Positions 14,115 to 24,232 of a DNA stretch of 27,022 nucleotides are shown here, piece after piece (within the stretch, counting starts at the first letter, position 1; the number at the start of each line of letters is the position of its first letter). The DNA lies in NCBI GenBank assembly GCA_022562795.1, contig JADFOP010000029.1, forward strand, positions 1 to 27,022, read 5' to 3'. The stretch comes from Nitrospinota bacterium. GTDB lineage: Bacteria; JADFOP01. Below the pieces are notes generated by a model, which ran no database searches, was not told the origin of the DNA, and saw only the letters and a program-made list of their open reading frames with translations. Made by a program: the position numbers and the translations under genes.

Positions 14115-14134
14115 ATAAACATAGTTGTCTTTCT

Positions 14135-14310
14135 CTGCGGATGCCCGCTAGGGCTGTAGACAGGGAAGAGGGTGAGAATCCCTCACGGTCTCTCCGCCAC
14201 TGTGATGGGGGACGAAAGCCCGAAGTCGCCACTGTCCCTTTGCCGGGATGGGAAGGCAGGGCGAGTAGGACGATCCCTAAGTCAGTAGACCTATTCGTAG
14301 AGCGTTTCCA
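14135..14310 (+). ncRNA. Cobalamin riboswitch aptamer
   Basis: The aptamer core is visible as GGTGAGAATCCCTCACGGTC (14171-14190) followed by CCGCCACTGTGA, the conserved strand seen in cobalamin elements. A further conserved part reads AAGTCGCCACTG. A B12 box, AAGTCAGTAGACCT, lies at 14279-14292. It sits in the leader of a TonB-dependent receptor gene, the expected target. Binding of adenosyl- or methylcobalamin would lower expression of the downstream transport genes. The exact 5' and 3' edges are approximate. Confidence 0.9.
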
Positions 14311-14361
14311 ACAGTCCTTCGGGGGTAGAGGACGTGGAAGTTGCTCGCATCACTCCACGGC

Positions 14362-14528: not shown

Positions 14529-16745
14529 ATGTTCGCGTTCGCAATCACCCTGGTTATGGCTGCTCTGGTCGCTCTTGGGCCTGCGACCGCTGCCGCCCAA
14601 ACCACTCCCGGGCCGCCTCAGGGCCCCGAGGCCGTCCAGCTTCAGCCGAAGGAAAAGGAGGTCGCAAAGAGTTCCGAGGCGGCCAAGCCTCCTGGCACCG
14701 AGGCTCAGACCGCTAAGAAAGCTGAAGAGCTAGGCCCCGTCGTCGTGACGGCCACGAAGACGGTCGTGCCGCTCTCCCTCTCCCCCTTCTCCACAGAAGT
14801 TATTACGGGCCAGGCGATCGAGGAAAAACAGGTCCCCTCGGTCCGGGAGGCCCTCAGGGGCGCCCGGGGCCTCCATGTCGTCGGGACGGGCCGCGAAGGG
14901 AGCCAGACCTCCATCTTCGTCCGCGGCGGGGCGAGCGACCACAATCTCGTCCTCCTCGACGGCATCCCCTTCAACGATGCGGGCGGCCTGGTTAACTTCG
15001 CCGATCTGACGTCGGACAATATCGAGCGCATCGAAGTCTTTCGGGGAGCCGGAAGCGCGCTCTACGGCTCCGACGCCATGACGAGCGTCATCCACATCAT
15101 TACCAAAGAGGGCGACGGACCCCCGACCCTCACCGTCTCTACGGCCTTCGGCGACCAGGGCACGACCAGAGAAATGGCCAGGTTGCAGGGCAGCCGGCCG
15201 GGGACGCGCTACAGCTTTACTCTGAGCCGTTATGACACCGACGGGTTCTTCGAGCCCAACGACTTTTACGGCAACACGACCGCTAGGGGCAAAGTTTCCC
15301 TCGCCCTGACTGACTACACCAAGGCGACCTTCACAGCGCACTACCTGGACCAGCGAAAGGGTCTGCCAGGCCAGACGGGCTTTTTCGTCTTCGACCGTGA
15401 CGAATTTTCTGAAAGCGACGAGCTAGCATTGGGCCTCACATTGACCCAGCAGCTCTTTTCCTGGTTCGACCACACGGTTTTCGTCGCGGTTTTGGACCGC
15501 AGACGTTTCACCCAAGATCTAATTTTTGACCCCGCAATTGCCCGGCGGCCCGAGGAGACTGATGTCGCCGTCCCCGCTTTCGACTTCATCAATGAGAGGA
15601 GCGATGAGATTGAACGCCGGCTCGCCGACTACCACTTCAATCTCCACGTCAATCAGCTCGATGTTGAGGCCGTTTTGACCGGAGGAGTTGAGTGGGAGCT
15701 GGAGGACGGCGAGCTCATTTTCGCCACCCCAGTATCATTTGGTGGCCCTTCCGAGGTCTTTCCCTTTGTCGAGTTCAATGATGAGCGGCGAAATCTCGGC
15801 TACTATGTACAGGCTCAGCTCAACTGGCGCGACCGGATTATCGTCGTGCCCGGCGTACGCTTTGAGGACAACGAGGCATTCGGTGGCGAGACGGTGCCTC
15901 GGGTGGCGGCCGCCATAATCCTGGGCGATCCACCTGAGGAGACCTGGGTCGGCCCGCTGAAGATAAGGGGGAGCTACGGAGAGGGCATCAAGGAGCCGCA
16001 ATTCGGGGAGAACTTCAGCCCGCCGCCGTTTAGAGGCGACCCGGGGCTCGCACCCGAGGAGACGGCCCACTGGGATGCCGGAGTTGAACTCACTCTCTGC
16101 AAGGGCCGCTGCTTCATTGAGGCGGTCTATTTCCATGTGAGGCAGAAGAATCTTATTTCGTTCATCACTGATACCTTTTTTCCCTTCACGGGCCACTTCG
16201 AGAACCTCGGCAAGGTCCGTTCTGAGGGATTGGAGGTCTACGGTGCGGTGGAGCCCTTCGACTGGCTTCGGATCGAGGGCCAGTACACCGGCCTAGAGAC
16301 GGTCGTCAAGGATTCCGCCAGCCCCGACAGCCCGACCGTCGGCGTTGGCAAGGAACTGCTGCGGCGGCCCAAGCACAGCGGATCCGGCTCAATTGTCGCA
16401 CGGTATGGCCCGCTCACCGTCCGGGGCGACGCCGTCTTCGTCGGCAGGCGGTTCGACTTTGACGGCCAGGGCCTTTCGATATTCGATAACCCCGCCTACA
16501 TGCGCGTCGATCTTGCCGCCCGCCTCCGGCTGGAAAACCACCTCGTTGAGCTCTGGGGATCGCCATTCCCGCACGCGGTGGAGGTCTTCGTCCGCGCCGA
16601 GAACCTCTTAGACGAAGACTACGAGGAGGTCCTCGGCTTCCCGGCGCCGGGGATTAACGTCCTGGCGGGGGTGCAGGTCACTTTTCAAGGGGCGGCCCAA
16701 GAGTTGAGCATAGCGCCCAGGAAAAACACGCTCGCCCAGCAATAG
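14529..16745 (+). CDS. btuB: TonB-dependent outer-membrane receptor, vitamin B12 type
   Basis: This outer-membrane beta-barrel would take up cobalamin (or other corrinoids) with energy from TonB. The 738-residue protein has a signal peptide (residues 1-23, cleavage near ATAAAQ), an unusually long proline/lysine-rich stretch (25-66), and a TonB box in LGPVVVTATK (69-77). A plug domain follows with SIFVRGGASDHNLVLLDGIPFND and ERIEVFRGAGSALYGSDAM, then the barrel, which ends with the extra tail SIAPRKNTLAQQ. The last barrel strand is probably AGVQVTF, so about 20 residues follow the expected terminal aromatic, which is uncommon. The cobalamin riboswitch upstream is the main reason for choosing BtuB over a siderophore or metal receptor. 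tonB begins nine bases after the stop. Confidence 0.88.
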   Translation: MFAFAITLVMAALVALGPATAAAQTTPGPPQGPEAVQLQPKEKEVAKSSEAAKPPGTEAQTAKKAEELGPVVVTATKTVVPLSLSPFSTEVITGQAIEEKQVPSVREALRGARGLHVVGTGREGSQTSIFVRGGASDHNLVLLDGIPFNDAGGLVNFADLTSDNIERIEVFRGAGSALYGSDAMTSVIHIITKEGDGPPTLTVSTAFGDQGTTREMARLQGSRPGTRYSFTLSRYDTDGFFEPNDFYGNTTARGKVSLALTDYTKATFTAHYLDQRKGLPGQTGFFVFDRDEFSESDELALGLTLTQQLFSWFDHTVFVAVLDRRRFTQDLIFDPAIARRPEETDVAVPAFDFINERSDEIERRLADYHFNLHVNQLDVEAVLTGGVEWELEDGELIFATPVSFGGPSEVFPFVEFNDERRNLGYYVQAQLNWRDRIIVVPGVRFEDNEAFGGETVPRVAAAIILGDPPEETWVGPLKIRGSYGEGIKEPQFGENFSPPPFRGDPGLAPEETAHWDAGVELTLCKGRCFIEAVYFHVRQKNLISFITDTFFPFTGHFENLGKVRSEGLEVYGAVEPFDWLRIEGQYTGLETVVKDSASPDSPTVGVGKELLRRPKHSGSGSIVARYGPLTVRGDAVFVGRRFDFDGQGLSIFDNPAYMRVDLAARLRLENHLVELWGSPFPHAVEVFVRAENLLDEDYEEVLGFPAPGINVLAGVQVTFQGAAQELSIAPRKNTLAQQ

Positions 16746-16753
16746 GAGGGCCG

Positions 16754-17638
16754 TTGCAGGAAGAACGCCAAATCCAAGGGGCCAGGCCTCGCAGGGGGAT
16801 GGCCCTTGCCTTCATCGCCTCGGTGGGGCTCCACGCCGTGGCGGTGTGGGGGACTGGGTGGTGGGTTCAGCCCGTATGGCGTCTGGAGCCTATCCACGTC
16901 ATCTCCCTGAGGGTCCTTAATGGAGAGGGCGCCACAGGGGCCTCTAGCCCCGTCCAAGCCCGGCCCAACCCTCAGAGGACACCTCTCAAGGACAAGTCGA
17001 AGGTGGTCATGCGTAGGGCGGCCCCTCCCGAGGAGCGCACCATGAAGCATCCTCAGAAGATCCGCATCGCGCAGAAGCCTCATACCCAAGTCACCCCGTC
17101 CGCACCACCGCCTCCGAAACCGCAACTGCGGGTGGCGACGGCTACGAGGCTCTCGCTCCCGGAGCCCTCTTCGCCCATGCCGCCATCGAGAAGCCCTCAG
17201 GCCGGAGAGTCCAGGCTGAGGCTTGAGACGCATCCACGTCCGGTCGGGAGGGGAGACGAGGAGAGCGCTGCCGGACCCTCCTCTCCGTCGGGCTCGCCCC
17301 TCCTCGTCGCAAAGGTCGAGCAGCCCAATAGGGGGTGGGACCGCGATGCGCGCCTGGAGGCCATCCGCCGCCTCATCCAGAAGGCCCTCGTCTATCCTCA
17401 GGCGGCCCGCCGTTTCGGCTGGGAGGGGACGGCGCGGGTTCGCTTCGCCCTGGGCCCCGACGGGCGACCCTCCGAGGTGACCCTGGAGTCCTCAAGCCAA
17501 ATGGCGATACTCGACCAGGAGGCCCTGGCAGCGGTCCGCCGAGCCGCTCCATATCCATATCTTAAGGGGGCCATTGTCGTTCCCATCGTCTTTGACATCC
17601 GGGCTCCACGTCCCCGAATCATCCCAGGTGCGCAATGA
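16754..17638 (+). CDS. tonB: TonB energy-transducing protein
   Basis: TonB links the inner-membrane proton gradient to the outer-membrane receptor. The 294-residue protein has one N-terminal membrane helix (residues about 15-35), a long proline- and basic-residue-rich periplasmic span (50-200), and a C-terminal TonB domain, YPQAARRFGWEGTARVRFALGPDGRPSEVTLESSS. The start is TTG at 16754 with AGGAGG (16744-16749) upstream; an in-frame ATG at 16799 would begin right at the membrane helix and has a poorly spaced ribosome binding site. No exbB or exbD is in the window, so the motor must be encoded elsewhere. Co-transcription with btuB under the riboswitch suggests a TonB dedicated to cobalamin. 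Confidence 0.88.
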   Translation: MQEERQIQGARPRRGMALAFIASVGLHAVAVWGTGWWVQPVWRLEPIHVISLRVLNGEGATGASSPVQARPNPQRTPLKDKSKVVMRRAAPPEERTMKHPQKIRIAQKPHTQVTPSAPPPPKPQLRVATATRLSLPEPSSPMPPSRSPQAGESRLRLETHPRPVGRGDEESAAGPSSPSGSPLLVAKVEQPNRGWDRDARLEAIRRLIQKALVYPQAARRFGWEGTARVRFALGPDGRPSEVTLESSSQMAILDQEALAAVRRAAPYPYLKGAIVVPIVFDIRAPRPRIIPGAQ

Positions 17639-18838: not shown

Positions 18839-19195
18839 GGACAGCCTAAAGGCTGTCCCTACATGGGGGCCGAGAATTGGAAGGGGAATCCCCTGTAGGG
18901 ACAGGGTTTACCCTGTCCGCGGGATTGAAGGGCGAGAAACGACGGACAGCCTAAATCCGCCTCAGGCGGACTACATCGACGTGTGCCTGTGTAGGGACAG
19001 GGTTTACCCTGTCCGAGGGTATGAAGGGCGGGTCGTGTATGCGGACGGGGGTTTATCCTTTTCCTGGGGGTCATGCTTGTTCGCGGACACCCATCCGCCT
19101 TAGGCGGACCTAAGGCGGACTACATAACAAGAGAACGGAGGCTACATTGGCCTAATCCTTTGTAGGGATCCGCCTCAGGCGGGCCTGAGGCGGAT
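18839..19195. repeat. Cluster of palindromic repeat elements
   Basis: Several perfect dyads lie in about 360 bp. They are GGACAGCC-TAAA-GGCTGTCC (18839-18858); two exact copies of a 26-nt unit (18894-18919 and 18990-19015) containing GGACAGGG-TTTA-CCCTGTCC; TCCGCCT-C-AGGCGGA (18956-18970); CCGCCTTAGG-CGGA-CCTAAGGCGG (19095-19118); and ATCCGCCTCAGG-CGGG-CCTGAGGCGGAT (19168-19195). TGTAGGGA or CTACAT borders most of them, as at element edges. No reading frame here looks real. The spacing is irregular and the units differ, so it is not a CRISPR array. This resembles dispersed miniature repeats that have piled up. Confidence 0.85.
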
Positions 19196-19246
19196 GACCC
19201 CGACACCACACCCCGGACCTTCATCGTAAATAATTCTAAAACCCCC

Positions 19247-19275
19247 TTGATTTTCGCTTTTTTTTCGTTTATGCT
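19247..19275 (+). promoter_or_regulatory. Possible promoter of the RecA-like/PolB cassette
   Basis: TTGATT (19247-19252) and TATGCT (19270-19275) are 17 bp apart in a T-rich stretch. They end about 30 bases before the TTG start at 19306. No LexA-type operator is evident. Confidence 0.5.
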
Positions 19276-19305
19276 TGATATCTCCACTATGGAGGGAGGG
19301 AGAAT

Positions 19306-19968
19306 TTGCGCATAGCGCCCACACACCTTCAGCGGGAGCTTCTCCCTGTTCCTGGAGCAGGCCCAGGGGGGTCCTTTGTCCTCCTCTATGGTAGCAAGAC
19401 AACCTACACGCTCTCCCTCTACGCTGTCTCCGTGCTCCTTGCTCGGGGCGACCATCTGCTGGTGGTAGACGGCGGCAATTCCTTCGATCCCTACGTCATC
19501 TCCGAAGCGGCCCGATGGCTCGGCCAGAGCCCAGAGGAACTTCTGGGGCGCATCCACATCTCCCGCGCATTCACCTGCCACCAGCTGGAGGCCCTAATCA
19601 CGGGACGCCTCTCAGATGCGCTACGGCGTTTCCACTCACGGAGCCTACTGCTTTCCGGCCTCCTGAATACCCTCTACGACGAGGATGTCTCGCACGGTGA
19701 GGCCTGGAAGCTGTTCCATCGGATAGTGGCGACGCTCCGCTCCTTGAGGAGGCAAGGCGTGAGCATGGTGGGCCTTTGCCCCGAAGCGTCGGCTCCAATC
19801 GCCATGCGACGGAGGTTTCTCGCCGAGCTTAAGGGCGAGGCCGACCGGGTGATGCGGGCTGAGACCAACGATGGCCGGACCTTGCTCACAACCGAGAAGC
19901 CTGCGGGCCTCGGCGGCCCACGGCAGCTGATAACAGAAAGCATCTCCGATGGAAGGGGATACAGATAG
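19306..19968 (+). CDS. RecA/RadA-fold protein with a damaged P-loop
   Basis: The 220-residue protein follows the Rad51/RadA core. LLVVDGGNSFDPYVISEAARWLGQSPEELLGRIHISRAF (residues 51-89) matches the RadA stretch that reads about Y-I-D-T-E-G-T-F-x-P with helix and HVARAF. The P-loop region reads LLYGSKTT (26-33): the GSGKT core has lost its second glycine. At the Walker B position (RSLLLSGLL, 112-120) the aspartate is missing. It therefore probably does not hydrolyse ATP normally. It has no N-terminal zinc or HhH domain and no DNA-binding loop that I can identify. TTG at 19306 is preceded by GGAGGGAGGG. The next gene starts directly after the stop. By position and fold it resembles ImuA, the RecA-like partner of bacterial mutagenic polymerases. 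Confidence 0.7.
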   Translation: MRIAPTHLQRELLPVPGAGPGGSFVLLYGSKTTYTLSLYAVSVLLARGDHLLVVDGGNSFDPYVISEAARWLGQSPEELLGRIHISRAFTCHQLEALITGRLSDALRRFHSRSLLLSGLLNTLYDEDVSHGEAWKLFHRIVATLRSLRRQGVSMVGLCPEASAPIAMRRRFLAELKGEADRVMRAETNDGRTLLTTEKPAGLGGPRQLITESISDGRGYR

Positions 19969-20259
19969 ATGGGACGGACGGTGCTTTCGGCAACCCAGGT
20001 GGTCTTGAGGGAACAGGCGAGCTGGAGCAAGTTCCGGAGGGTCCTTCGGAAAGAGGATCAAGAAACGCTGGACGCCCTCTTCCAGGCGGCCCGGTACCAT
20101 GCAGCGGCTCTCTCGTACGTCTCGAAGCCCACGCCCTTGGAGCCGATCCTTATATCCATGCTCATTGAGCACCAAAAGGCCATCCAGGCCCTGGAAGAGA
20201 AGATAAGAAAGCTGGAGGAGAAGCGAGGCGATGACGGAGACGACCGGCTGGCTCTTTGA
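19969..20259 (+). CDS. Small helical protein with C-terminal coiled coil
   Basis: The 96-residue protein has no family I recognise. Residues 1-45 are amphipathic and basic (REQASWSKFRRVLRKEDQETLDALFQAARYHAAAL). Residues 60-90 (SMLIEHQKAIQALEEKIRKLEEKR) form a clear heptad coiled coil. It has no cysteine, catalytic pattern or membrane segment. The ATG immediately follows the RecA-like gene's TAG, and its last 29 bases overlap the polymerase start, so the three genes are translationally coupled. A bridging or oligomerisation role between the RecA-like protein and the polymerase is an inference from position only. Confidence 0.75.
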   Translation: MGRTVLSATQVVLREQASWSKFRRVLRKEDQETLDALFQAARYHAAALSYVSKPTPLEPILISMLIEHQKAIQALEEKIRKLEEKRGDDGDDRLAL

Positions 20260-22450
20260 CGTCTATCCCTCCAGCGAGGGGATGGTGGTGTGGCTCCTGG
20301 ACGATGAGGGGAAGTCAACCGCGTTCGTGGACCGCTACGAACCTTACTTCTACGCCTCGGGAAGCAGAGAGGGCCTGAGGCTGCTAAGGCAGCGCCTCTC
20401 CAGAATCAAGGTGCCAATCCGAACGGAGCGGGTCGAGCGGACGGAGTTCTGGAGCGGAAGACCCCTGGAGGTCCTCAAGGTCTCAACCCCCAACCTCCTG
20501 GCCTACGGGCATTTGGCGAGGGTCGCTGGCAGGCTGGAGGGTATCGAGCTCTTTAACTGCGATATCCCACTGCCCCAGGTCTATCTCTTCGAGAGGAATG
20601 TCTTCCCGCTGGCCCGATGTCGTCTAGATTGTGACACCGAGGGTCGGATCGGGGCGATGGAAGCGCTTGACTCGCCCTGGAGCACAAACTACGCCATTCC
20701 TCCTTTAAGGGTGATGGAACTCAGGGTCGAAGGCGGGGGGGTAAACCCCAACCACAGTCGCCGGGGCAGGCTTGAGGTGGAGCTCGACGGCGCAACCTAC
20801 ACCCTTGAGCCCGACGACCCGGCCGAGCTTATCCACACCTTCAATAGCTTGCTTGAGAGCCACGATCCCGATCTCATCATCACTGAATGGGGGGACTCTT
20901 TCATCATCCCTCGGCTGATGAGTCTTTCGGGGGCGGCGGGCCTCCCCTTGCTCCTTAATAGGGACCCAAGGAAGCAAAAAGTCGCTTCTCGAAGAGCTCG
21001 CTCTTATTTCACCTACGGCAAGACCGTCTACCAGGCAGGCGCCCGGACGCTGTTCGGACGGTGGCACGTTGACCGCTGCAATTCCTTCATTTTGGGCGAG
21101 GCGGGGCTGGAGGGCCTCTTCGAGCTCGCCAGGATCGCCAAGATTCCTGTCCAGCGGACAGCCCGTACATCAACCGGCACCTGTATAAGCAACATGCAGA
21201 TGGAGCGGGCCGTCCGAGACGGCATCCTCATTCCCTGGCGCAAGCGGCGGGCCGAGGAGTTCAAAACGGGGCTTGAGCTGCTGACCGCCGACAAAGGCGG
21301 TCTCACGTACCAGCCGGTGCTCGGCGTCCATGAGAACGTGGCCGAGATCGACTTCTCTTCCATGTACCCCACCATCATGGCGACCTACAACGTCTCACCT
21401 GAAACGGTGGGGTGCGCCTGCTGTCGCAACGCCGTCCCAGAGATCAACGCCTCCACCTGCCAGAGGAGGGAGGGGCTGGTGCCGAAGACCCTGAGGCCCA
21501 TCCTTGAGAAGCGGGCACGCTACAAGTCGCTCATGCAGGAAGCAGGCTCTAAGAAGGAACGAGGAGTCTATGACCGGAGGCAGTGCGCCATCAAGTGGAT
21601 GCTGGTCACGTGCTTCGGCTACCTGGGCTACAAGAACGCGCGGTTCGGCAAGATCGAGGCCCACGAGTCTGTCACGGCCTACGGTAGGGAAAAGCTCCTC
21701 CAGGCGAAGGAGGTCGCCGAGGCGAGAGGCTTCGCGCTCATCCACGCCCTGACCGACTCCCTCTGGGTGAAGAAGAAGGGTTCGACGGAGACAGAGTACG
21801 AGGCCCTGCGCGAGGAGATGGCCCGCGCCACGGGGCTGCCCATCGGGCTTGAAGGGGTCTACCTGTGGATAGCCTTCCTCCCATCGAAGGTCTCACCCAA
21901 GATGCCCGTGCCCAACCGGTTCGTCGGGGTCTTCACCGACGGGAGGGTCAAGGCCCGAGGCATTGAGATGCGGCGCTCCGACATGCCCCCGTTCGTCAAG
22001 AAAGCTCAGGCTGAAATCGTAAGGCTACTCTCAGAGGCCGGGAGCGTAGAAGAGATCAAGGCCAAGGTGGATGATGCTCTGGAGGTGCTCTCCGGGTATC
22101 TGGCGGAGCTAAGGGAAGGAGGGGTGCCGCTGCACGAGCTCGTGATAAGGAAGCGGTTGTCGAAAGACCCCTTAAGCTATAAGAAAAAGAGCATCTTGGC
22201 TGAGGTGGCGGGAGAGCTCGTCTCCAGGGGGGTGGCTCTCAGGCCTGGGGAGAAGGTCGATTACGTCATCACAGACTTCGAGGGAAGGAGTGGAGGGCCG
22301 AGGGCCAGGGCGTATGCAACGATGGATGAAAGCTGCGGCTACGACGTCGGCAAATATACCGACCTGCTCCTTGAGGCCGCCGGGACCATGCTGGCCCCCT
22401 TCGGCTACGACTACCAGCGGCTGGTGGAAATCGCCCCGCTGTCTGCTTGA
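20231..22450 (+). CDS. Family B DNA polymerase with degenerate exonuclease motifs
   Basis: The 739-residue protein has an N-terminal domain, a decayed 3'-5' exonuclease domain (about 155-310), and the palm, fingers and thumb of family B. Motif A is D374FSSMYPTIM. Motif B is in R450QCAIKWMLVTCFGYLG. Motif C reads ALTDS (506-510), keeping D509 but with leucine where most enzymes have the first Asp of DTD. Exo I (family DIE) reads V-MEL and Exo II (family N-x3-FD) reads EWGDSFII, so proofreading is probably absent. Four cysteines (C395, C397, C398, C410) in the palm insertion could bind metal. It most resembles the divergent archaeal PolB2 group, one member of which is a damage-induced error-prone polymerase. 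GAGGCG precedes the ATG. Confidence 0.85.
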   Translation: MTETTGWLFDVYPSSEGMVVWLLDDEGKSTAFVDRYEPYFYASGSREGLRLLRQRLSRIKVPIRTERVERTEFWSGRPLEVLKVSTPNLLAYGHLARVAGRLEGIELFNCDIPLPQVYLFERNVFPLARCRLDCDTEGRIGAMEALDSPWSTNYAIPPLRVMELRVEGGGVNPNHSRRGRLEVELDGATYTLEPDDPAELIHTFNSLLESHDPDLIITEWGDSFIIPRLMSLSGAAGLPLLLNRDPRKQKVASRRARSYFTYGKTVYQAGARTLFGRWHVDRCNSFILGEAGLEGLFELARIAKIPVQRTARTSTGTCISNMQMERAVRDGILIPWRKRRAEEFKTGLELLTADKGGLTYQPVLGVHENVAEIDFSSMYPTIMATYNVSPETVGCACCRNAVPEINASTCQRREGLVPKTLRPILEKRARYKSLMQEAGSKKERGVYDRRQCAIKWMLVTCFGYLGYKNARFGKIEAHESVTAYGREKLLQAKEVAEARGFALIHALTDSLWVKKKGSTETEYEALREEMARATGLPIGLEGVYLWIAFLPSKVSPKMPVPNRFVGVFTDGRVKARGIEMRRSDMPPFVKKAQAEIVRLLSEAGSVEEIKAKVDDALEVLSGYLAELREGGVPLHELVIRKRLSKDPLSYKKKSILAEVAGELVSRGVALRPGEKVDYVITDFEGRSGGPRARAYATMDESCGYDVGKYTDLLLEAAGTMLAPFGYDYQRLVEIAPLSA

Positions 22451-22711: not shown

Positions 22712-24232
22712 ATGGTCCCTACCACATCCATTGAATTTCCCGAAGTAGAGATCAGTTCCAAGGTGGAGGAGTTTTTGGCCTCGCCCCGGAAGCTGCTCAT
22801 AGGCGGCCGGTGGGCCGACGCCGCTTCCGGCAAGACCTTTCCGGTTTACAACCCGGCGACCGGTGACGAGCTCGCGCGTGTGGCCGAGGGGGACAGGGAG
22901 GACATCGACCGCGCCGTCGATGCCGCCCGGAAAGCGTTCGAGGAGGGCCCGTGGCGCCGGATGACGCCTTCGGAGCGCGGCCGCATCATTTGGAAAATCG
23001 GCGATTTGATTCTCGAGAACCTCGACGAGCTCGCCGAGCTGGACTCACTCGACAACGGCAAGCCCCTCGGCGTCGCCAAGGTCGCGGACGTGCCGCTCGC
23101 CGCCGACCTGTTTCACTACATGGCCGGCTGGGCGACGAAAATCGAGGGCAGCACCATACCCATCTCGGTGCCCTACGCGCCGGGCGCCAAGTTCCACGCC
23201 TTCACCACGCGCGAGCCAATCGGCGTGGTGGGCCAGATAATCCCGTGGAATTTCCCGCTCCTTATGGCCGCCTGGAAGCTCGGCCCCGCGCTCGCGACCG
23301 GAAACGCCATCGTCCTCAAGCCCGCCGAGCAGACGCCGCTCTCCGCCCTGCGGCTCGGCGAGATAATTCAGGAAGCGGGCGCGCCCGACGGTGTCGTCAA
23401 CATCGTGCCGGGTTACGGCGAGACGGCCGGGGCGGCGCTCGCCGCGCACGATGGCGTCGATAAGATCGCCTTCACCGGCTCAACCGAGGTCGGCAAGCTC
23501 ATCGTCCAGGCCGCTACTGGGAACCTGAAGAAAGTCACCCTCGAGCTCGGCGGCAAATCTCCCAACATCGTCTTCAAGGACTCCCCCGATCTCGACGCCG
23601 CCATCGCGGGCGTAGCCAGCGCCATCTTCTTCAACCACGGCCAGTGCTGCTGCGCCGGCTCTCGCCTCTTGGTCGAGCGGGAGATCTTCGACGACGTGGT
23701 TGCCGGCGTTTCCGAGGCCGCCCAGAATATCAAGCTCGGCCCCGGCCTCGCCGCCGACACGCAAATGGGCCCGCTCGTCTCTGAGGAGCAGCTGGAGCGC
23801 GTGACCGGCTACATCGACGCCGGCCAGAACGACGGCGCGTGCGTCGTCACGGGCGGCCGTCGTATCGGTGAGCGCGGCTACTTCGTCTCACCCACCGTGA
23901 TAACCGACGCCCGGCCGGAGATGAGCATCGTCCGCGAGGAGATTTTCGGGCCGGTCGTCGTCGCCGAGCCGTTCACGAAGACCGAAGAGGTGCTTCCGGT
24001 CGCCAACGAAACCGTCTACGGCCTCGCGGCCGGCATCTGGACGGGGGATATCTCCAAGGCCCACCGGGTGGCCGAGCAGCTCCGCGCGGGCACCGTCTGG
24101 ATAAACTGCTTCAACATCTTCGACGCCGCGCTCCCCTTCGGCGGATACAAGCAGTCCGGCTGGGGCCGGGAGATGGGCAAAGGGGCCCTCGACCTCTACA
24201 CGGAGACCAAGGCCGTCTGCATCGGTCTGTAA
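22712..24232 (+). CDS. NAD(P)-dependent aldehyde dehydrogenase
   Basis: It oxidises an aldehyde to the acid with NAD(P)+. The 506-residue length is normal. Motifs in order: IIPWNFPLLMAAWK (active-site Asn), FTGSTEVG (cofactor Rossmann loop), ELGGKSPNIVF with the general-base Glu, NHGQCCCAGSRLLV with the catalytic Cys, and EEIFGPVV. It is closest to the ALDH1/betaine-aldehyde-type class, but the substrate is not clear. GGAGGAG precedes the ATG. It stands alone between the polymerase cassette and tRNA-Leu, with a terminator behind it. Its third codon positions appear even richer in C and G than those of its neighbours. Confidence 0.92.
   Translation: MVPTTSIEFPEVEISSKVEEFLASPRKLLIGGRWADAASGKTFPVYNPATGDELARVAEGDREDIDRAVDAARKAFEEGPWRRMTPSERGRIIWKIGDLILENLDELAELDSLDNGKPLGVAKVADVPLAADLFHYMAGWATKIEGSTIPISVPYAPGAKFHAFTTREPIGVVGQIIPWNFPLLMAAWKLGPALATGNAIVLKPAEQTPLSALRLGEIIQEAGAPDGVVNIVPGYGETAGAALAAHDGVDKIAFTGSTEVGKLIVQAATGNLKKVTLELGGKSPNIVFKDSPDLDAAIAGVASAIFFNHGQCCCAGSRLLVEREIFDDVVAGVSEAAQNIKLGPGLAADTQMGPLVSEEQLERVTGYIDAGQNDGACVVTGGRRIGERGYFVSPTVITDARPEMSIVREEIFGPVVVAEPFTKTEEVLPVANETVYGLAAGIWTGDISKAHRVAEQLRAGTVWINCFNIFDAALPFGGYKQSGWGREMGKGALDLYTETKAVCIGL

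Follow-up and report, generated by a model that had tools for sequence, protein, structure and literature searches.

The stretch of DNA analysed here (the window) comprises 27,022 nucleotides of contig JADFOP010000029.1 from a Nitrospinota bacterium and carries on its forward strand three tightly packed genes together with a ribosome-binding site:

19291–19302, + strand: purine-rich ribosome-binding site ggagggagggag, read directly, 5' of the iRadA gene
19306–19968, + strand: iRadA gene, 220 aa, TTG start; RadA/Rad51 fold, no N-terminal domain, no Walker A motif
19969–20259, + strand: PPB2 gene (arCOG07300-type), 96 aa, ATG start; small helical protein beginning with MGRT
20231–22450, + strand: PolB2 gene (G2 group family B DNA polymerase), 739 aa, ATG start

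The ATG of the PPB2 gene stands directly after the stop codon of the iRadA gene and the PolB2 gene overlaps the PPB2 gene by 29 bases, a layout that a first-pass annotation made from the sequence had described correctly to the base. The neighbours of the operon are ordinary chromosomal genes (a TonB system, an aldehyde dehydrogenase and a tRNA), and the aldehyde dehydrogenase gene downstream of PolB2 (22712–24232) is unrelated and 261 bases away. Elsewhere in the window a cobalamin riboswitch (14122–14312; Rfam RF00174, 90.7 bits) is located upstream of a TonB-dependent receptor gene (14529–16745), and a TonB-like gene (16754–17638) comes next after the receptor gene. The region upstream of the operon also contains an intergenic 41-nt direct repeat in two copies (18894–19030, 93%) and, at about 19089–19200, GGCGGA inverted-repeat elements (tccgcctcaggcgg...).

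That PolB2 shares an operon with arCOG07300 and an inactivated RadA was described for archaea in 2014 (PMC4104785). In 2025 the two partners were renamed PPB2 and iRadA, the bacterial gene order was given as iRadA-PPB2-PolB2 and a single transfer of the operon from archaea to bacteria was reported (PMC11791011). The same paper presents a modelled PolB2-iRadA-PPB2(3) heteropentamer for archaea and bacteria, with the MGRT arm touching PolB2, iRadA and DNA, and the bacterial G2/PolB2 polymerases are treated as PolB2 mutasome in PMC12926913 as well.

The polymerase of the window clearly belongs to family B, matching DNA_pol_B of Pfam with E 4.3e-39 and the type B polymerase entry of NCBIfam with E 2.7e-120. 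Its 3'-5' exonuclease is inactivated, as in an alignment of 86 sequences the Asp of Exo II aligns with I225 and the Tyr of Exo III falls in a deletion; the Exo I motif could not be located in the alignment of the window PolB2. Both the family and the loss of the exonuclease motifs had already been recognised in the first-pass annotation. The following motifs were identified:

21071–21076, + strand: D281-R282, D(K/R) motif in a loop of PolB2; Asp in 86/86 PolB2 sequences
21350–21352, + strand: D374, catalytic Asp of motif A, kept; 86/86 PolB2 sequences
21413–21460, + strand: Cys cluster C395-x-C397-C398...C410; C395, C397 and C410 in 86/86
21749–21757, + strand: L507-T-D509, motif C (DxD), first Asp replaced by Leu, second kept; D509 in 86/86

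The residue following D281 varies widely among the relatives, while the Asp itself is invariant. Position 398 is occupied by Cys in 83 and by His in 3 of the 86 sequences, and the resulting CxC(C/H)...C pattern is a possible metal site, a role of which no discussion was seen in the covered sections of the PolB2 mutasome literature. At position 507 all 86 sequences have I, L, V or N, and the window reads LTD. As this first Asp of DxD is replaced by Leu in the window and is non-acidic throughout the family, as the exonuclease Asp is lost too, and as PolB2 was called inactivated in the early literature (PMC4104785), one might assume that the polymerase is catalytically dead and that the three proteins act at stalled forks or origins as a complex with a regulatory or structural role. 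We consider this unlikely, because the invariance of the motif A Asp and of the second motif C Asp in 86 sequences is hard to explain without catalysis and because Dpo2 from Sulfolobus, which has IID in place of DxD (PMC11791011), has been described as a robust polymerase and as an extender without exonuclease (PMC8764526).

Also the first gene agrees with the RadA-like core and broken P-loop that had been proposed for it. On its own, the window iRadA gave only weak matches to RadA (E 0.008–0.15), a profile built from 33 relatives matched solved RadA with E 1.8e-15, and its AlphaFold (AF2) model (pLDDT 88) matched chains of Rad51/RadA, the E value being about 5e-11 and the TM-score about 0.7 by query length. 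For the structure models, alignments consisting of the window and genome-contig rows only, without phage and plasmid rows, were used. The P-loop GxxxxGK[TS] is absent from the window iRadA and from 69 of the 70 iRadA sequences in the set. A regular-expression search of the iRadA C-termini for a clamp-binding motif found none in the window and one doubtful match in a relative, and among the PolB C-termini of about a dozen loci read by eye, that of the window PolB2 shows no recognisable motif of this kind. Such a sliding-clamp motif is present in only a fraction of the known PolB2 mutasome members and is not required.

The second protein had been suggested to be a small coiled-coil protein, and its AlphaFold model (pLDDT 88) is indeed helical with a 37-residue C-terminal helix. 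It carries the N-terminal arm motif defined in PMC11791011:

19969–19980, + strand: codons of the MGRT N-terminal arm of PPB2, seen in the PPB2 loci and in an alignment of 32 PPB2

Among the listed loci, 63 of the 76 PPB2 scored start with [MVL]GR[TN], and much of the remainder shows GKT-type or misparsed starts. The 32 rows of the alignment were picked by the MGRT-type motif, and its invariance there is due to this selection. A fold search with PPB2 found no solved relative at E below 3 and therefore did not reproduce the published likeness to a sigma-factor N-domain; in Pfam the protein matched no family, the sole match being at chance level (E 0.1).

To take a broader look at the family, we searched a genome collection for relatives of the polymerase, of which at least 563 were confirmed and the best 80 kept, and used partner profiles, each built from five seed sequences, to search 90 polymerase loci. 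At 70 of these 90 loci both partners are present, and in all 70 listed loci holding both the order is iRadA-PPB2-PolB2, just as in the window, where the genes are adjacent and on the same strand; chance can therefore be excluded. Some of the remaining polymerase loci end at contig ends, and four of six genomes without PPB2 at the polymerase locus encode it elsewhere in the genome. The hosts among the listed relatives are Chloroflexota, Nitrospirota, Acidobacteriota, Bacteroidota, Ignavibacteriota, Pseudomonadota, Thermodesulfobacteriota and Bathyarchaeota. In a maximum-likelihood tree of the polymerases, for which B-family enzymes of the PolB1/PolB3 type from Bathyarchaeota genomes served as outgroups, all PolB2 split from the outgroups with a support of 100/100 and the window PolB2 is located inside the bacterial PolB2 with a moderate support of 80/92; nearest to it by path among the tree members are polymerases from Chloroflexota, Armatimonadota and Pseudomonadota. 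Thus, it groups with PolB2 and not with replicative PolB1/PolB3 or phage polymerases. The first-pass annotation had named the gene order in relatives and the grouping of the polymerase as checks of its reading, and both came out in its favour.

A sister genome (G002), the only other one of this genus in the genome collection, contains pieces of PolB2 operons on three contigs (C775, C466 and C553), which are broken at contig ends. One PolB is 89% identical to that of the window over the C-terminal half, and the N-terminal halves in the pieces are 85% and 81% identical to the window's; the sister genome thus appears to hold two copies of the operon.

Complete iRadA-PPB2-PolB2 operons, with a PPB2 starting with MGRT, are also found in LE1-type phages of Leptospira (L005:4198–7454; L006:4207–7259; L090:3192–6253), where the genes are annotated only as hypothetical proteins and DNA polymerase family B and where the polymerase is 36–39% identical to the window PolB2. 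The full three-gene set is present on two IMG/VR contigs with identical match positions, and haloarchaeal plasmids carry full copies of the operon. The main text of PMC11791011 does not mention phages or Leptospira. In view of such copies the window operon could be a polymerase cassette gained recently from a phage or plasmid instead of a resident repair operon, but this is quite improbable, as the phage copies stand apart from the window PolB2 on a long branch of their own, the chromosomal neighbourhood is ordinary, and the operon is present in the sister genome under the same promoter.

What the first-pass annotation had called a convergent mutasome with a B-family enzyme is indeed a mutasome-like set built on such an enzyme, whose partners are a RecA-fold protein and a small bridging protein as in the published PolB2 mutasome, and the connection to archaeal PolB2 that it had drawn is borne out by the position of the polymerase in the bacterial PolB2 clade. 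From the architecture, which resembles ImuA-ImuB-DnaE2 and Pol V, one might suspect a new mutasome that arose by true convergence and has no relation to the archaeal system. This can be dismissed, since each of the three proteins has its homologue in the archaeal set, with agreement in sequence, gene order and MGRT arm, and they are therefore not an independent invention. Judged from these homologies, the window system is a transferred one, the bacteria having acquired the PolB2 set from archaea.

The similarity to ImuA-ImuB-DnaE2 exists in outline, both having a RecA-fold partner, an adaptor protein and an error-prone polymerase, but that system uses a C-family polymerase and an inactive Y-family ImuB, and neither its polymerase nor its small protein is homologous to those of the window. 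With a family B polymerase and a second protein without a Pfam family, the window operon is not a member of it. E. coli Pol V (UmuD'2C-RecA) likewise combines a polymerase, a small oligomeric subunit whose N-terminal arm is inserted and a RecA/Rad51-fold partner (PMC11791011), but it differs in its Y-family polymerase, active RecA and UmuD' fold. Closer is Dpo2, which in Sulfolobus is inducible by damage and alone accounts for targeted mutagenesis (PMC7390963). By the published descriptions, Dpo2 of Sulfolobus islandicus resembles the window polymerase in its family, the degenerate DxD, the missing exonuclease and, if the window operon is regulated as proposed below, the damage-inducible operon. 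It differs in the archaeal host, in having IID where the window has LTD, and in an Orc1/Cdc6-linked response as compared to the proposed LexA-type control.

This proposal arises from the promoter region of the operon:

19247–19275, + strand: promoter-like TTGATT-17-TATGCT, the spacer containing a candidate LexA operator; same layout as the lexA promoter
19253–19267, + strand: direct repeat TTCG-N7-TTCG in the 17-base spacer of the operon promoter

The lexA gene of the window genome is located on another contig (C27), upstream of a Y-family polymerase gene, and not in the neighbourhood of the operon; in published PolB2 operons a nearby lexA is enriched but neither universal nor required, and among our listed loci a LexA-like gene is close by at 16, in 12 of them on the operon strand. 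The lexA promoter (TTGACC-TTCGTATTATTTTCGCC-TATTAT) and the operon promoter (TTGATT-TTCGCTTTTTTTTCGTT-TATGCT) both have a 17-base spacer with TTCG-N7-TTCG. The pattern TTGANNTTCGN7TTCG, derived from these two sites, occurs exactly there and nowhere else in the 2.15 Mb of the window genome; the reversed control pattern occurs once, and 100 shuffles of the window gave no occurrence. In the sister genome it is found five times, namely at lexA, at a PolB2 operon, upstream of two small genes and once in unrelated sequence. As the pattern derives from the window genome, only the lexA match of the sister genome represents an independent test. The two small genes of the sister genome (sites at C55:19695–19715 and C166:162–182) have the promoter TTGATTTTCG-N7-TTCGCCTATTAT common to lexA and the PolB2 operon; they are similar to each other, have a helix-turn-helix-like start and resemble, by eye, phage terminase small subunits. 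The recA promoter of the window genome does not contain TTCG-N7-TTCG. The 11-base period of the repeat equals that of the SOS box of Caulobacter, GTTCN7GTTC (PMC9578287). Taken together, the operon promoter appears to carry the organism's own LexA switch, and from this sequence evidence we infer LexA binding and induction of the operon by DNA damage.

A single operator for all bacteria was rejected, because TTCG-N7-TTCG is present upstream of only four operons of the bacterial set (the window, two Acidobacteria and one Patescibacteria) while Ignavibacteria and Bacteroidota carry GACA-N4-TGTC. The latter is found at 12 of the 70 listed loci, all from these two groups and mostly just after the –35 element TTGACA, and might be the operator of a LexA-like repressor. 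In full, the shared element reads CTTGACA-N4-GACA-N4-TGTC-GTAT upstream of iRadA (L022, L027, L028, L039, L043, L047, L053, L055, L057, L059, L069 and L070), and at some of these loci a divergent LexA-like gene adjoins it.

Nearly all testable sequence features of the PolB2 mutasome family are found in the window operon: it shares with the published system (PMC11791011, PMC4104785; G2 group, PMC12926913) the three genes and their bacterial order, the MGRT arm, the lost DxD Asp, the lost proofreading and a RadA fold without P-loop and N-terminal domain. It differs in its host, a sparsely sampled Nitrospinae-like lineage, in lacking a clamp motif, and in a distant lexA, with which its promoter nevertheless shares the candidate operator. 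As a whole, the operon is best explained as encoding a PolB2 mutasome that is probably LexA-repressed, damage-induced and mutagenic, to which we assign a probability of roughly 0.86. By analogy with the published work, the family B core of PolB2, with the Asp of motif A, the second Asp of motif C and no working proofreading site, would extend mismatched or lesion-containing primer ends as does Sulfolobus Dpo2. iRadA, probably devoid of the usual ATP binding, would serve as a structural subunit held by a loop of PolB2 similar to that of RadA oligomerisation, and PPB2, probably as a trimer, would insert its MGRT arm between PolB2, iRadA and DNA. LexA would repress the operon from the TTCG-N7-TTCG repeat between –35 and –10, and DNA damage would switch it on, leading to damage tolerance at the cost of mutations. 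More tentatively, and at somewhat less than even odds, the PolB2 operon could belong to a very small set of LexA targets, or perhaps even be the sole one besides lexA and the Y-family gene following it, so that SOS in this organism would mainly be a mutagenesis switch on an archaeal polymerase complex, acting through a Caulobacter-like repeat with an 11-bp period, and the imported operon would have come under different LexA operators in different bacterial clades.

As the three-gene set, its order and the model of the complex have already been published, the window operon is a further and good example of a known system and not a new one; the new piece is the putative LexA control of the PolB2 operon in this lineage, a useful and testable addition. 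The operon lends support to the published idea of a wide spread of an archaeal translesion complex among bacteria, complete copies of it travel on Leptospira phages, and the putative LexA operator common to lexA and the PolB2 operon adds a concrete regulatory link.
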